64,000 nt of DNA from positions 2,418,001 to 2,482,000 of the forward strand of contig NC_013946.1 of assembly GCF_000024425.1 (NCBI RefSeq). The letters run 5' to 3'. Below are positions 1,540 through 23,735 of this stretch, in pieces. Source of the stretch: Meiothermus ruber DSM 1279. GTDB lineage: Bacteria; Deinococcota; Deinococci; Deinococcales; Thermaceae. How positions within the stretch are numbered: the first letter of the stretch is position 1; each line of letters opens with the position of its first letter. The position numbers were made by a program, and so were the translations under genes. A model generated the notes under the pieces. That model did not search any database. It was not told where the DNA came from and saw nothing but the letters and a program-made list of their open reading frames with translations.

Positions 1540-3591
1540 CTATTCGCCCGCCGGGCTGGCCTGCTTGCTTTTTAGCTGCTGCACCACCAGCTCAGAGATA
1601 TCCAGCACCCTGGGGGCCTGGCCCTCGGGTTCCTGGGCGGTCTCGAGGTTCATCATCTGCATACAGAAGGGACAGCCCACCGCAATGGTCTCGGCCCCGG
1701 TGCCCCTAAGCTCGCGGTAGCGGTGGGTAGAGACCCGCTCCTGGCCGGGCTCCTCCTCTTTCCAGAACTGGGCCCCGCCGGCCCCGCAGCAGAAGCTATT
1801 GGTGCCGTGGCGCGGGGGCTCCTTGAGCGCAAGGCCGGCCGCCTGGATGACCTGGCGGGGTTCTTGCAGCACCCCGTTGTGCCGGCCCAGGTAGCAAGGG
1901 TCGTGGTAGGTAACCGCCCCGCTCATGGGCAGGAGCTCGAGCCGCTTAGCATCAATCAGCTCGGCGATGAACTCGGTGTGGTGCTTGACCGTGTAGCGGC
2001 CGCCAAAGTCTTTGTACTCGTTGGCCAGGGTGTGGAAGCAGTGGGGGCAGGTGGTCACGATGGTCTTGGGCTTATCCGCCATGACCGCGTTCAAGGTCTC
2101 TACGTTCTCGGTGGCCAACTGCATGAACAGAAACTCGTTGCCGGCCCGCCGGGCCGCATCCCCCGTGCATTTTTCCTGCTTGCCCAGCACCGCCCAGCTC
2201 GTGCCGGACTCATGCAGAATTTCCGCGAAGGCCCGGGCGGTCTTCTGGGCGCGGGGGTCGTAGGCCGGGGCGCAGCCCACCCAGTAGAGCACCTCGGCCT
2301 CGGGGTTCTCACTTACGGTCTTGACCGGGAACGGCAGCCCCTCGGCCCAGGCCAGGCGCTTATCGGCCCCCAGGTTCCAGGGGTTGCCGTTGCGCTCCAT
2401 GCCCTTGAAGGCGTTGTTGAGCTGGGTGGGGAAGGCCCCCTGCATCATCACCTGTTCGCGCCGCACGTCCAGGATGTGCAGCATGGGCTCGTTGCCCACC
2501 GGGCAGACCTCCACGCAGGCGTTGCAGGTGGTGCAGGCCCAGAGGGCCTCTTCGTTCAGGGCAAACTCCAGCAACGGGCGGGGGCTCTCCTGGCCCGCGG
2601 CAAAAGCCGGCAGAATCTGGTTCAGCTCGTAGCGCTCGTTGATGATCAGGGCCGAGGGCGAGAGGGCCTTGCCGGTGGTGTAGGCCGGACAGACCTCCTG
2701 GCAGCGGTTGCACATGATGCAGCTATAGGCGTCCAGCAGGCGCGGCCAGGTGAAGTCCTCCAGCTTGGCGACCCCGAACTTCTCCAGCTTTTCCAGCTCT
2801 TCAAAGTCCTTGGCGATGGGCAGCAGGGCCCCTGGCTTCTCCTTCTTGAAGGCCAGGTTGAGGGGGGCCAGGAATAGGTGGATGTGCTTGGAGCGGGCAA
2901 AGTAAGGGATGAAGAGCAGAATCGAGCCGATGGCAAACCACCAGAAGAGGTGCTCGAGGACGATCAACCGGTCTACATCCACCCACAGGAACAGGTTGCT
3001 GGCCAGGCTGGCTACCGGCTGGAAGGGATCGGGGCCGTACTCGAGGTTGGCGGCCTGGGCGGCCTTGTGCAGCAGGCGGCTCCCCACGTGAAAAAGAATG
3101 AACCCACCCACAATGGCGCTATCGGTGGGGATGCCCTCGCGCACCCGCTCATGCAGGGGGGTCTTCTCGTTCCAGCTAAAGGTCTTGCGCCCCGCCCCGG
3201 AGTAACGCCGGATGAGCAGTCCGGTAATGCCGACCAGAATGAGAGCCGTGAGGATGTCGGCCACCAGGTTGTAGCCGTTCCAGAAGCCCCCCCGGGCCTT
3301 GAAGGGGAAGAAGCCATCGAGCACGTCCACCAGGTTCACGCTCAGGTAAAACACAAAGCCGTAGAACACAAAGGCGTGCAGCAGGCTCACCCAGGGCCGC
3401 TTTTTGAAGACGGTCTGCATGGTGAGGGTCTGCCACAAAGCCCGGCCCGCTCGAGCCGGCAGGTTGTCGAAGCGGTCTTCGGGCTGGCCCCGGCGGATGG
3501 CCTTGTAGACGCGGTACAGCGCCCCACCACCAAAATAAAGCGAGGCCAGCACCAGCAGCAAGAAGAGGATTTTTTCAGGTGTGGTTAGCAT
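1540..3591 (-). CDS. Membrane-bound (Fe-S) oxidoreductase, EtfD/HdrD-like
   Basis: A 683-residue membrane protein expected to pass electrons from a soluble donor to the quinone pool. About five or six hydrophobic helices fill residues 1-230 (cytochrome b / NarI-like part). Two ferredoxin-type 4Fe-4S motifs follow, CIMCNRCQEVCP near 291 and CTTCNACVEVCP near 353, and then two CCG domains (GCAPAYDPRAQ; DPCYLGRH with NSFCCGAGG) as in GlpC and heterodisulfide reductase subunit D. This order matches EtfD-type proteins that reoxidise electron-transfer flavoprotein during fatty acid oxidation. The start has GGGAG upstream. No etfAB genes are nearby, so the partner is inferred from family knowledge only. 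Confidence 0.85.
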   Translation of the reverse strand: MLTTPEKILFLLLVLASLYFGGGALYRVYKAIRRGQPEDRFDNLPARAGRALWQTLTMQTVFKKRPWVSLLHAFVFYGFVFYLSVNLVDVLDGFFPFKARGGFWNGYNLVADILTALILVGITGLLIRRYSGAGRKTFSWNEKTPLHERVREGIPTDSAIVGGFILFHVGSRLLHKAAQAANLEYGPDPFQPVASLASNLFLWVDVDRLIVLEHLFWWFAIGSILLFIPYFARSKHIHLFLAPLNLAFKKEKPGALLPIAKDFEELEKLEKFGVAKLEDFTWPRLLDAYSCIMCNRCQEVCPAYTTGKALSPSALIINERYELNQILPAFAAGQESPRPLLEFALNEEALWACTTCNACVEVCPVGNEPMLHILDVRREQVMMQGAFPTQLNNAFKGMERNGNPWNLGADKRLAWAEGLPFPVKTVSENPEAEVLYWVGCAPAYDPRAQKTARAFAEILHESGTSWAVLGKQEKCTGDAARRAGNEFLFMQLATENVETLNAVMADKPKTIVTTCPHCFHTLANEYKDFGGRYTVKHHTEFIAELIDAKRLELLPMSGAVTYHDPCYLGRHNGVLQEPRQVIQAAGLALKEPPRHGTNSFCCGAGGAQFWKEEEPGQERVSTHRYRELRGTGAETIAVGCPFCMQMMNLETAQEPEGQAPRVLDISELVVQQLKSKQASPAGE

Positions 3592-3616
3592 GGAACTCCC
3601 TTCAAGCGGTAAAAAT

Positions 3617-3631
3617 TTATACTGAGTATAA
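3617..3631. promoter_or_regulatory. 15-bp palindrome between divergent genes
   Basis: TTATACT-G-AGTATAA is a perfect inverted repeat with a single-base centre. It lies 26 bp upstream of the EtfD-like gene and 69 bp upstream of the divergent small membrane protein. Each arm contains a TATACT-like -10 element, so a dimeric repressor bound here would cover promoters in both directions. The binding protein is unknown. Confidence 0.45.
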
Positions 3632-19483: not shown

Positions 19484-21145
19484 ATGCCCAGTTGCCTTGA
19501 CCAGACCCAGGCCACGCCCGTCGTCCAGCATCCAGCCGCTCCTTCGGCTCGAGGGGCCGTCTTCACCCGCCCTGAGGTGGCGGAGTTCATGCTGGATCTG
19601 GTGGGCTACACCCCCGACCAACCCCTGTATCAGCAGCGCATTCTGGAGCCGTCGTTTGGGGATGGTGTGTTCCTGCTAGCCATCCTGCGCCGGCTGCTGG
19701 CGGCGGCCAGGCGGGCCGGGGTTTCGGAGCTGGCCGGGGCCATCCGGGCAGTGGAGCTGCACTCTGAAACCTTCGAGGCCACCCACCGCGCGGTGGTTGC
19801 GCTGTTGCAGCAGGAAGGCTTCAGCAGGCACCTGGCCGACCAATGGCTGATTCAGGGGGATTACCTGCTGTGTTCACTCGAGGGACCTTTCCACTACGTG
19901 GTCGGCAACCCGCCCTACGTGCGCATGGAGACCGTCCCCCCTACCCTGCTGGCCGAGTACAGAAAACGCTACGCCACCATGTACGACCGCGCCGACCTGT
20001 ACATCCCTTTCATTGAGCGTTCGCTATCGCTGCTGGCGGAGGGGGGTGCGCTGGGATTCATCTGCGCCGACCGCTGGGTCAAAAACCGCTACGGCGCCCC
20101 GTTGCGCCAGTATGTGGCCGACAACTTTCATCTCAAAATTTTCCTTGACATGGCCCATATGCCGGCCTTCCGCTCTAAAGTAGCAGCTTACCCGGCCATC
20201 GTGGTGATCAGCCGGGAAGCGCCGGGGCCCACCCGCGTTGTTCGCCCGGCGAGCCTCGAGCCAGGCCAGCTCACCCGGCTTGCGGAGGTGCTGCGGGCCA
20301 GCACCCTGCCAGAAGGCAGCGGGGTGCGGGTGGCCCAGGTCACCCGCGGCGCAGCGCCCTGGCTGTTCCTTGCACCCGAGCAAAGGGCTTTGCTGGAGCG
20401 GCTCGAGCGCAGCTTTCCCAGCCTCGAGGAGGCGGGCTGCCGGGTTGGGATTGGGGTGGCGACCGGGGCCGACCAGGCCTTTATCGGCGACTTCGAGGCC
20501 CTCGAGGTAGAACCGGATCGCAAGCTGCCCCTGGTCACCACCCAGGACATCGGCTCAGGCGAGGTGCGGTGGGGCGGCAAGGGTCTTATCAACCCCTTTA
20601 GCGAGACGGGTGATCTGGTCGATCTTCGCTGCTACCCCCGGCTGCGCGCTTATCTAGAAGCGCGCCGGGAGGTGATAGCCAGTCGACACTACGCCCAGCG
20701 GTTTCCGGCGCAATGGTACCGCACCATCGACCGGATCGTACCCTCGCTGGCCAGAACGCCCAAGCTCCTCATCCCCGATATCAAAGGCCGGCCCCATGTG
20801 GTGTTTGAGCCGGGGCGGCTGTACCCTCATCACAACCTCTACCACATCACCTCCGAATCGTGGGATCTGCGCGCACTCCAGGCGGTGCTGTTGTCGGCGG
20901 TGGCCCACCTGTTTGTCGCGGCCTATTCAACCCAGATGCGCGGGGGCTATCTGCGCTTTCAGGCCCAGTATTTGCGGCGCATCCGCATCCCACCCTGGGC
21001 CAGCGTACCCCAGAATATCCGGCAAGCCCTCCTCGAGGCCGCCCAGAAGCGCGATGTGTCAGCCTGCAACCAGGCCGCCTTTCGGTTGTACGGCCTTAGC
21101 GAGGAAGAAAGCGCTGTTCTCGAAAGGTTATACGCAAGCACGTGA
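19484..21145 (+). CDS. Solitary N6-adenine DNA methyltransferase (gamma class, Eco57I/PaeR7I-like)
   Basis: A 553-residue type II DNA methylase. It has the X-I region [14 protein letters not shown] followed by [16 protein letters not shown], and the catalytic motif IV GNPPYV near residue 145, in gamma-class order. The rest ([58 protein letters not shown]) is the target-recognition part. From memory these blocks resemble methylases of the XhoI/PaeR7I type (CTCGAG), but I cannot verify the specificity. GGAGGG precedes the ATG. No endonuclease gene is adjacent: upstream is the amidase, downstream a non-coding repeat beginning at the stop codon. Confidence 0.88.
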
Positions 21146-21484
21146 TGACTCCTCGGACTGGAAGTCCAAGGCTTCTCGGGAACCACAGATACACCGCACC
21201 CGAGGGCTCCGTCCGAGCCCATAGAAAACCTTGACTCCGTATCGGCAGGCGAGCGGTATGCTTCCCGCCCCGCCTTGGCGGGGCGGATGCCACGGGTGTT
21301 CGTTTGGAGTTTTACCCATCGGACTACCCGATGGAACCCCCTACTCCAGGTTTCAAGGGGCACGGGAAGCGATGTTCCCAAGGAGATCACACCGCCCATT
21401 TGCCGCCCACTATGCTATGTGCTCCTCCGGAGCACGTGGGGAGTCCATGTGAAAACCGGGGGATTATAGCCCCCACACCCCCTC
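21143..21484 (+). ncRNA. Structured repeat copy 1 (omega-RNA-like candidate)
   Basis: First of two related non-coding elements. The main block (21143-21358) can fold into several hairpins: GGACT/AGTCC, CTCGGG (21175) / CCCGAG (21199), GGGCTC/GAGCCC, a perfect 10-bp GC stem near 21264-21285, and CCATCGG (21316) / CCGATGG (21328) nested within TTGGAG/CTCCAG. The block ends in TTTCAA(GG), after which the two copies diverge for 95 bases here. A second shared block (21449-21484) holds GGGGG-attatag-CCCCC. Ending in TCAA followed by unrelated sequence is like an IS200/IS605 right end with its TnpB guide RNA, but no tnpB is present. The class assignment is inference. Confidence 0.6.
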
Positions 21485-21507
21485 CAATTTTTGCTACCCT
21501 ACTCGGC

Positions 21508-22485
21508 ATGGAGTTCGCATCGAATTTGTTGCTTATAGCCAGCGGCGTGGTGCTGCTGTACTTTGGGGGCGAGTCGCTGGTCAAAAACGCGGTGATACTG
21601 GCCCGCAGTTGGGGCATCAGCACCATGGTGGTGGGCCTGACGGTGGTGGCTTTTGGCACCAGCAGCCCCGAGCTGGCCGCCAGCCTGGCCGCGGCCCTCT
21701 CGGGCAGCCCCTCCATCGCCATTGGTAACGTGGTGGGCTCGAACATTCTCAATATCCTCTTCATCCTGGGCCTCACCGCCCTGATCGTGCCCATCCGCGC
21801 CCAGGCCCAGTTCATCAAGCGCGAGGTGCCCATCATGCTGGGCGCAACCTTGCTGCTGTTTGTGTTCCTGTACTTCGACCAGCAGATCACCCGCTGGGAG
21901 GCGCTCTTTTCGGTGGGATTACTGGGTCTGTACATCTGGTTTCTGTACCGCAGCGGTGCAACCGAGGTAGCCGAGGTGCAGCAAGAGTACGAGCAGGAAT
22001 ACAGCCAGACCACCAAAGCCGGCTGGCAGGCCTACGCGGGGGTGGTGCTGGGGCTGGTGCTCCTGGGGGTGGGGGCCCGCCTGCTGACCCTGGGGGCGGT
22101 GGAGCTGGCCCGGGCCTTTGGGGTGCCTGAGCTCATTATTGGCCTGACCGTGGTGGCCCTGGGCACCAGCCTGCCGGAGGTGGCTGCCTCCATTGCGGCC
22201 GCCCTGCGCCGCGAGCCCGACATCGCGCTGGGCAACATCGTGGGCTCCAACATCTTCAACATCCTGGGCATCCTGGGCCTCACCGCCCTGGTGCAGCCAG
22301 TGGGCCTGCCCTGGGAGGGCATCCAGCGCGATATGTGGGTGATGCTGCTGGCCAGCCTGCTGCTATGGCCGTTTCTGGCGACCGGGTTCCGCCTGGGGCG
22401 GCGCGAGGGGGGCGTTTTCCTGGGGCTGTACGGGGCTTATGTGGCCCTGCTGATCTACAGCGCTGCTCAGCGCGGCATGGGTTGA
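21508..22485 (+). CDS. Calcium/sodium antiporter (CaCA family, YrbG-like)
   Basis: A 325-residue inner-membrane cation/Ca2+ exchanger with about ten helices in two inverted halves. The two alpha-repeats are clear: VAFGTSSPELAASLAAAL with GNVVGSNILNI, and VALGTSLPEVAASIAAAL with GNIVGSNIFNI. The hydrophilic loop between halves (YEQEYSQTTKAGW) is short, as in bacterial YrbG. The ATG at 21508 (MEFASNLL) is chosen because the reading frame upstream runs through the structured repeat. The 3' end overlaps the convergent holA gene by 19 bases. Confidence 0.93.
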   Translation: MEFASNLLLIASGVVLLYFGGESLVKNAVILARSWGISTMVVGLTVVAFGTSSPELAASLAAALSGSPSIAIGNVVGSNILNILFILGLTALIVPIRAQAQFIKREVPIMLGATLLLFVFLYFDQQITRWEALFSVGLLGLYIWFLYRSGATEVAEVQQEYEQEYSQTTKAGWQAYAGVVLGLVLLGVGARLLTLGAVELARAFGVPELIIGLTVVALGTSLPEVAASIAAALRREPDIALGNIVGSNIFNILGILGLTALVQPVGLPWEGIQRDMWVMLLASLLLWPFLATGFRLGRREGGVFLGLYGAYVALLIYSAAQRGMG

Positions 22486-23405
22486 TGCACCCGCGCCAGC
22501 GTGGCCAGGGCCCGCTCCAAGGCCAGCCGCATATCCCGGCCTGTTTTGGCCGCCTCCTCAGCCTCCAGCAGGGCCTCGAGGGCCTGGGTGATGGCCTCTC
22601 CAGACATCTTTTTAGCCAGTAACAGGGTTTGCTTGGCAGCGTAGGGGTGCATGCCCAGGGCGCTGGCGGCCACCCCCTCCCCCATCAGGGGGTCATCCTG
22701 CAGCAGGGCCCAGGCCCTAGCCACCCGCACGTACTGCCAGGAGAGCGCACCCAGAATGCGCAAGGGGTCTTCCCCCCGCTCCAGTAGCTCACGGGCCACC
22801 TTGAAGGCCTGGGTGGCTTTACCTTCGGTGATGGAACGCACCAGATCAAAGCCGGAGATGGGGGTGTCCAAAGCGACCAGGGCCTGTACTTTCTCCAGGG
22901 TGATGGGGGGCGAGGCCAGGCAGAGTTTGCGCAGTTCCTGGTCGAGGGCCTCGAGGCCCATGGCCGGGTTCTCGGCGCTGCCCTTACCCCCCACCAGGCC
23001 CGCCAGGTACGAGGCGATGGCCCCCGGTAACTTCAGGTCGTAGTGGCGGGCGCGGTTCACCACCCAGTTGGTCATCTCCTTGGGGCCAGGGGTGGGGTGA
23101 TCGCGCTTCTGGGCTTTTTCGGCGTACCACTTGCTGCGGGCCGCGGTGGGCCGGGGATCGAGCAGCAGCACCACCGCCTCGGGCGGCAGGCCTTCCAGCA
23201 CCTCCTTAAGGGGCTTCCACTCGGCCTCGGCAAGGTCGCGCAGATCCACCAGGGCTCCGCTGGGGCCAAACAGCCCACCGCTGGCCTCCTGGGCCACCAG
23301 GGCCGGCTCCGGGGGCATCAGGCGGGGGGGTAGGCCCTGCAGGCTGGCCTCCTGGAGCAGGGCCTCTCGGGCCAGAAAGCTGTCGCCGGTGAACACCTGA
23401 ATCAT
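22467..23405 (-). CDS. holA: DNA polymerase III subunit delta
   Basis: A 312-residue clamp-loader subunit that opens the sliding clamp. It begins MIQVFTGDSFLAREALLQEA, has the RDLAEAEWKPLKEVLEGLPPEAVVLLLD region, the GLEALDQELRKLCLA segment typical of HolA domain II and the C-terminal PYAAKQTLLLAKKMSGEAITQALEALLEAE. The start at 23405 is set because the frame upstream lies antisense to the second structured repeat. It overlaps the antiporter gene tail to tail. Confidence 0.88.
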   Translation of the reverse strand: MIQVFTGDSFLAREALLQEASLQGLPPRLMPPEPALVAQEASGGLFGPSGALVDLRDLAEAEWKPLKEVLEGLPPEAVVLLLDPRPTAARSKWYAEKAQKRDHPTPGPKEMTNWVVNRARHYDLKLPGAIASYLAGLVGGKGSAENPAMGLEALDQELRKLCLASPPITLEKVQALVALDTPISGFDLVRSITEGKATQAFKVARELLERGEDPLRILGALSWQYVRVARAWALLQDDPLMGEGVAASALGMHPYAAKQTLLLAKKMSGEAITQALEALLEAEEAAKTGRDMRLALERALATLARVHQPMPR

Positions 23406-23457
23406 GCGCAGTGGCAGGATACCAGATGACAGGCACTTACAGCTTAGAGTGGCAGCA

Positions 23458-23714
23458 TGACGACGCCTCGGACTGAAAGTCCAAGGCTTCCCGGGTACTA
23501 CAGCGTAGAAGCCGTATCCGAAGGCTCCGTCCGAGCCCAGAAAACCTTGACTCCGTATCGGCAGGCGTCCAGCTCTGCCACGGGTGCTCGTTTGGAGTTT
23601 TACCCACCGAACTGCCCGGTGGAACCCCCTACTCCAAGTTTCAAGGTGCATTGGGGGCGTTCATGTATCCCCGGTTTGAAAACCGGGGGATTATAGCTCC
23701 CCCACACCCCCTCT
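23458..23714 (+). ncRNA. Structured repeat copy 2 (omega-RNA-like candidate)
   Basis: Second copy, same strand as the first, lying between the holA start and the end of the DUF4160 gene, so it is not the leader of any gene here. The main block runs 23458-23646 and again ends TTTCAAGG. Compared with copy 1 the paired stem CCACCG (23604) / CGGTGG (23617) keeps pairing while one pair changes from T-A to C-G, and the CTCGGG/CCCGAG stem is replaced by GGCTTC (23485) / GAAGCC (23508). The GC-rich 10-bp hairpin of copy 1 is absent. Only about 22 bases separate TTTCAAGG from the terminal hairpins CCCCGGTTT/AAACCGGGG and GGGGGA/TCCCCC, followed by six Ts (23714-23719), a plausible terminator. Confidence 0.6.
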
Positions 23715-23735
23715 TTTTTCTAAGACCACAGGGCT

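Follow-up and report, generated by a model that had tools for sequence, protein, structure and literature searches.

Mini-elements of the IS200/IS605 type in Meiothermus ruber and other Thermaceae carry predicted stand-alone omega-RNA genes

TnpB is thought to retain its own transposon by cutting the empty donor site. Stand-alone (trans) omega-RNAs have reportedly been described for IscB (Altae-Tran 2021). A close comparison for TnpB is the omega-RNA of ISDra2, in which positions −5 to −3 take part in a pseudoknot and positions −20 to −17 form a UUUA loop (PMC10097598). The sotRNAs of haloarchaea overlap tnpB (PMC12558985). The palindrome-associated transposable elements (PATEs) of Haloquadratum walsbyi (PMC3119063) were presented as non-coding DNA elements at a time when omega-RNAs had not yet been discovered.

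The window analysed here, a stretch of 64,000 nt from M. ruber DSM 1279 (NC_013946.1), contains two related minus-strand copies (Table 1) that we interpret, with a probability of about 0.7, as PATE-like, non-autonomous mini-elements of the IS605 type that code for stand-alone omega-RNAs driven by a promoter; TnpA would move them, and they would probably guide TnpB in trans. Like PATEs, the elements are transposase-free, have near-terminal palindromes of the IS605 type and cause no target duplication, and some derive from deletion of an IS605 core; unlike PATEs, they keep a promoter and a complete omega-RNA scaffold, and have an added folded 5′ domain conserved across genera. As predicted separate omega-RNAs, they resemble sotRNAs and the trans omega-RNAs of IscB, which are seen as transcripts of their own; sotRNAs differ in overlapping tnpB, and the omega-RNAs of IscB in being another RNA family.

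Table 1. Positions in the window of the two mini-elements and their parts.
Feature	Positions	Strand	Details and basis
Mini-element copy 1 (342 bp)	21142..21483	−	Left end 21483, right end 21142; boundaries from the 31-element alignment
Copy 1 left end (LE), subterminal hairpins and GGGGGCTATAATCCCCC (the earlier "second block")	21394..21483	−	
Copy 1 extended −10 position	21386..21391	−	TGTGAT here (weakened); TGTGGTACAAT/TATAAT in most copies
Copy 1 structured 5′ RNA domain	21226..21381	−	Covariance model R2, 151 bits; pair counts
Copy 1 omega-RNA scaffold / right end	21142..21220	−	Covariance model R1, 75.6 bits
Copy 1 predicted guide GTGCTTGCGTATAACCTTTC, host sequence beside right end	21122..21141	−	After ...GTCATCAC; analogy with ISDra2
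Mini-element copy 2 (263 bp)	23457..23719	−	Target TTAG, plus strand 23720-23723
Copy 2 left end	23652..23719	−	97 % identity to LE of this genome's tnpB element
Copy 2 5′ domain	23543..23650	−	R2 match, 120.8 bits; alignment; promoter and P0 hairpin deleted
Copy 2 omega-RNA scaffold / right end	23457..23538	−	R1 match, 68.1 bits
Copy 2 predicted guide GCTGCCACTCTAAGCTGTAA	23437..23456	−	Position beyond right end

An earlier, sequence-only reading had noticed the two copies as a structured, RNA-like repeat, and the relationship is real: they share blocks of 84, 46, 43, 33 and 29 nt with 84–100 % identity. Its observation that neither tnpB nor tnpA lies nearby holds for the surrounding 11 kb. 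The repeats are not due to chance: matches to the 5′ domain were listed 69 times, with E values as low as ~1e-41, and they come from 20 of the 50 Thermaceae genomes searched. The same reading suggested orphan TnpB guide RNAs or PATE-like elements, which was right in kind and mistaken as to the strand, the right end and the start of the guide.

Alignment of 31 elements from Thermaceae genomes, in minus-strand direction, showed that they start after TTAG with AGAAAAGAGGGGGTGTGGGGGAGCTATAATCCCCC and end in ...GAGTCGTCAC, beyond which the sequences are unrelated. The boundaries after TTAG and after GTCGTCAC are sharp in nearly all scored insertions, about 30 of 32 of which have the TTAG target. 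For many elements, the two flanks put together align with an uninterrupted site in a relative that lacks the element; there is no duplication, identity is 91–100 %, and most of the alignments are ungapped over the junction (for instance, L071 versus G039, 100 %; L052 versus G025, 99 %; L016 versus G023, 99 %). These are non-autonomous elements of the IS200/IS605 (PATE-like) type, with shared ends and insertion at a fixed motif without target duplication. The left flank of element L041 (joined query positions 900–972) is a dispersed repeat of ca. 72 nt, present in many copies in G007 and G018 (81–90 %) and without relation to the element.

The element-free relatives G017 and G021 read AAAAATTAG directly followed by GTG at the insertion site of copy 1, indicating that its target is TTGG, a mutated TTAG (plus strand, 21484–21487), and that ca. 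6 nt are missing from its left end. The corresponding empty site of copy 2, in relative G016, is TCTTAG immediately followed by GCTACC. Copy 1 lies at the stop codon (window 21137–21147) of a gene for an Eco57I-type methylase (19484–21145), which ends in ACC TAA in relatives and here in ACG TGA, contributed by the right end of the element. In about 12 further insertions, the element likewise sits where a long reading frame ends, the stop codon being contained in TTAG or in the complementary CTAA. Copy 2 is directed into holA (window 23405–23456; DNA polymerase III delta, minus strand), so that any transcript from it would enter the holA leader.

The sequence-only reading took the plus strand and placed the junction of scaffold and guide at TTTCAA. 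In the minus-strand RNA, this motif corresponds to CCUUGAAA, the 5′ strand of the internal stem P1, in which CCUUGA pairs with UCAAGG, and the copies diverge past it because promoter and first hairpin are missing from copy 2. The sharp end ...GTCGTCAC of nearly all copies and the empty sites put the guide junction at the opposite end, at 21142 and 23457. The boundaries and empty sites rule out the plus-strand reading with TTTCAA as the scaffold end. The second block shared by both copies does exist, and its role is a different one: it is the left end of the transposon, because the same 69 nt precede the tnpA/tnpB pair of this genome.

Searching the whole genome (a single contig of 3,097,457 bp) by blast with copy 2 identified a complete third copy (L003/L077), the relic of a right end (L006/L009) and a locus matching the second block only (L004/L008). 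The left end in this last locus is directly upstream of the single TnpB gene of the genome, on the minus strand, which identifies the second block as left end and the opposite side of the repeat as right end; the LE segment of copy 1 also precedes tnpA/tnpB in L008 and in other autonomous elements. The mini-elements thus share their ends with the autonomous tnpA/tnpB element of the same genome (LE, 97 %; RE, near-identical, the right end of the third copy being almost identical to that of the tnpB element). From its sequence, the single TnpB (376 aa) looks intact, with three TnpB Pfam domains and homology to the solved TnpB of ISDra2 (E 3.5e-60). The only cognate TnpA found in the genome, close to TnpB, lacks its middle part through an in-frame internal deletion; the element of a relative (L074) has a full-length-looking tnpA. 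The region of L008 with the tnpA deletion (3030–3299 and 3390–3630) contains, just upstream, a second left end and a fragment of the tnpB N-terminus, and represents nested IS605 remains. The relic in L009 (3235–3310; genome about 2984234–2984309) is a lone right end without a left end.

The final 66–120 nt of the elements fold into stem 1 (GGGCUC-GGACG-GAGCCU), stem 2 (UCGG..CCGA, extended to a variable degree) and, at the terminus, a long stem 4 whose loop is UUUA or UUCA, followed by AGUCGUCAC; the loop of stem 1 (GACG) can pair with CGUC just ahead of the element end, forming a pseudoknot. This matches ISDra2 in stem 1, stem 2, stem 4, the pseudoknot at −5 to −3 and the guide derived from the flank (PMC8612924, PMC10097598), the loop of stem 4 being at −21 to −18 in the Thermaceae elements and at −20 to −17 in ISDra2. 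In contrast to ISDra2, the mini-elements have no tnpB in cis, target TTAG instead of TTGAT, have their own promoter directly upstream and contain an extra 5′ domain. Copy 1 has stem 1 (GGCUC-GGACG-GAGCC), stem 2, stem 4 and a pseudoknot strand, GUCAUCAC, with one pseudoknot pair lost. A stem that had appeared to be rebuilt between the copies was interpreted correctly only in part: CTCGGG/CCCGAG is stem 2 of the scaffold, and GGCTTC/GAAGCC from copy 2 is not homologous to it, with UUCGG/CCGGGAA being kept in that copy.

A covariance model of the scaffold (R1) matched 37 of the 50 Thermaceae genomes and had no match in 61 genomes from elsewhere in the phylum. Of 151 matches examined, 60 are situated 8–9 or 34–35 nt past the TNB domain of a TnpB, so scaffolds fused to tnpB, which the earlier reading had proposed to look for, occur in many Thermaceae genomes. 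Another 52 have at least 1.3 kb upstream and no TnpB domain there among the matches listed, which is how we define stand-alone, at least one such case (L186) being a tnpB pseudogene; the remaining 39 are too close to contig ends to be classified. Certain genomes with copies, such as G021, G025, G012 and G019, have no R1-linked (cognate) TnpB, and their copies are therefore orphans or relics. Rfam yielded nothing relevant for the window or related loci at gathering or permissive thresholds, so that this suggested check returned no match above the gathering threshold.

The 5′ domain consists of hairpin P0, the closing stem P1, a P2-P3 arm and a P4 arm. Its covariance model (R2), run on the same 50 Thermaceae and 61 other genomes, gave at least 69 matches, spread over 20 genomes from four genera of Thermaceae, and none in the other genomes of the phylum. 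Species with named matches to the family include Meiothermus taiwanensis, M. hypogaeus, M. rufus, Thermus scotoductus and T. altitudinis; T. scotoductus DSM 8553 (G039) has around 20 near-identical copies. Among the matches listed, a scaffold follows 4–33 nt after the 5′ domain in 49 of 69 cases, the others being at contig ends, in gaps, or beside scaffolds that are weak or not among the matches listed, and none of these 5′ domains was found linked to tnpB. Matches to an 18-nt motif in other phyla were at chance level (an estimated 30 or so chance matches are expected in 257 Gb), and searches of plasmids and phages found left-end fragments only. The domain is not an ordinary tnpB remnant, as blastn gives no match with the autonomous elements apart from their ends; it could conceivably descend, at a distance, from the 3′ end of tnpB (GCTCGCCTGCC.. 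versus CTCGCCTACAAAGCGGAG..). Small palindromes (TCCGCCCCGCCAAGGCGGGGCGG; GGCGGCGCTTTCTTCGCCGCGAAGCGGGGTG; GCGCCGCGCTACGGCGCGG), apparently mobile micro-palindromes, are inserted in loops of the RNA (window 21259–21286, L013, L020, L051, L046 and L061).

We scored a hand-written structure on 23 stand-alone copies against slid and shuffled controls. For the whole structure, 96.9 % of cells were paired, versus 32–54 % when slid, and 44 cells had two-sided changes, versus 15.5 ± 2.9 after shuffling. The 5′ domain alone was 95.9 % paired, with 11 two-sided cells against 4.5 ± 1.6, beating every shuffle; these concern four pairs with two-sided changes, a number reached by 115 of 500 shuffles of these 23 close copies. 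When the divergent homologues L036, L078, L169, L181 and L067 were included, 19 of the 42 pairs of the 5′ domain had two-sided changes, the alignment having been fitted to the model. L078 has a rebuilt P2 stem, GUCAAGGU/ACCUUGAAC, which encloses the conserved loop strands AGGGGGUU...GUAAAA. Two-sided changes are also present in scaffold stems 1, 2 and 4 (helices 10, 12 and 13); the pseudoknot GAC(G)/(C)GUC is retained in 97.8 % of cells and shows little covariation because it is nearly invariant. The compensated change first noticed in the window, T-A at 21319/21331 versus C-G at 23607/23619, is genuine, the pair being U-A in 15 and C-G in 6 of the 23 copies. Wider covariation and exact empty sites in relatives, which the sequence-only reading had also proposed to seek, were hence both found.

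In most mini-elements, the first hairpin is immediately preceded by TGTGG-TACAAT or TATAAT. The equivalent position in autonomous elements, before tnpA/tnpB, has TGTGC-TATCAT or TAGCAT, so that the mini-elements resemble products of internal deletion in which the promoter of the element has been brought next to the omega-RNA, an origin by deletion also proposed for the core-deleted PATEs of Haloquadratum (PMC3119063). At least four other 5′ forms occur between the promoter and an intact scaffold (L029, L071/L072, L067/L170 and L151-L156). The scaffold comes directly after the promoter in L029, and the insert of L151-L156, from a fifth genus, is a piece of the 3′ end of tnpB. A hairpin in the latter changes from CGCCUAC/GUAGGCG to CACCUAC/GUAGGUG and CACCUGC/GCAGGUG, with two compensated changes in a sequence that is non-coding there. 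Genome G049 contains these six stand-alone elements and one tnpB-linked scaffold.

The elements might instead be inert PATE or MITE relics, IS605 deletion derivatives that spread because TnpA recognises their ends and whose RNA folds are functionless leftovers. This would agree with the core deletions behind PATEs in Haloquadratum (PMC3119063), as well as with the decay of the window copies, the deleted TnpA of this genome and the several genomes without cognate TnpB. We nevertheless consider it unlikely: TnpA should require the terminal hairpins only, yet in several deletion forms the promoter is retained together with the entire scaffold, stem 1 and pseudoknot strand included, stand-alone copies show two-sided compensatory changes both inside and outside the terminal hairpin, and the near-identical multi-copy sets of T. 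scotoductus suggest recent activity.

IS605 TnpA acts on folded single-stranded DNA ends, and the internal hairpins could serve transposition of single-stranded DNA, for instance in the folding of the excised circle, and not a guide RNA. A single-stranded preference has indeed been noted (PMC10278001), but autonomous elements with the same ends have no such internal stems, the 5′ domain varies among mini-element types, G-U pairs are common among one-sided changes, and the stems are preceded by a promoter and followed by the pseudoknot of a TnpB scaffold, all of which make this explanation very improbable. We give equally little credence to a domesticated or regulatory RNA, with the 5′ domain having a role of its own, such as guiding a dead TnpB or regulating neighbours, and the omega-RNA being its carrier. 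The conservation of the domain over four genera, the rebuilt arms of divergent copies and an RNA longer than the 116-nt ISDra2 scaffold would fit; however, neighbourhoods are not conserved, the insertions are at scattered TTAG sites with empty orthologous sites in relatives, and no dead TnpB is linked.

We therefore favour stand-alone omega-RNA genes. As judged from their sequence, the two copies have lost their own genes and keep both ends and a complete putative guide-RNA gene. Dozens of related elements in Thermus and Meiothermus have this unit behind a promoter, so the mini-elements probably depend on full-size relatives for TnpB and transposase. The left end would bring the parental tnpA/tnpB promoter, which copy 2 no longer has, and the folded 5′ domain would replace the genes; the right end is a whole omega-RNA scaffold, so the host DNA just outside would become the guide. 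Transcription from the left-end promoter should produce an RNA of ca. 200–300 nt whose last part is host sequence. A TnpB supplied by a full-size element could bind this RNA in trans and may trim its 5′ side, as TnpB processes the 5′ side of its own mRNA (PMC10278001). The TnpA of full-size relatives would move the element as single-stranded DNA, and the TnpB complex would cut TTAG plus guide, that is, the donor site left empty by TnpA excision, so that repair would restore the mini-element. The sequences show anatomy, distribution and structural selection; the guiding of TnpB in trans is a probable prediction. The system of the window genome is probably largely inert, because the −10 of copy 1 is weak, that of copy 2 is lost and TnpA is deleted; both window copies are probably partly decayed relics.

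More tentatively, at somewhat under even odds, IS605 elements may have repeatedly lost tnpA/tnpB and kept the promoter, becoming omega-RNA genes that parasitise TnpB and TnpA, with one lineage gaining a covarying 5′ domain of new role, candidates for which are stability at high temperature, processing or preferential capture of TnpB. PATEs, TnpB omega-RNAs and stand-alone omega-RNAs of IscB are already known. With respect to Rfam and the literature searched, tnpB-less, promoter-driven omega-RNA mini-elements with a conserved extra RNA domain appear new; we found no description of tnpB-less omega-RNA mini-elements there, which is weak evidence, with subscription papers covered in part.

The family offers natural, promoter-driven, thermophilic omega-RNAs, as predicted, whose target motif and guides are known, and the idea of guiding in trans is thus directly testable in Thermus. 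Should guide-only elements make use of TnpB in trans, the enzyme would be a shared good open to cheaters, which would bear on the persistence of tnpB and on the rise of separate guide-RNA genes, as in the tracrRNA and crRNA of CRISPR.
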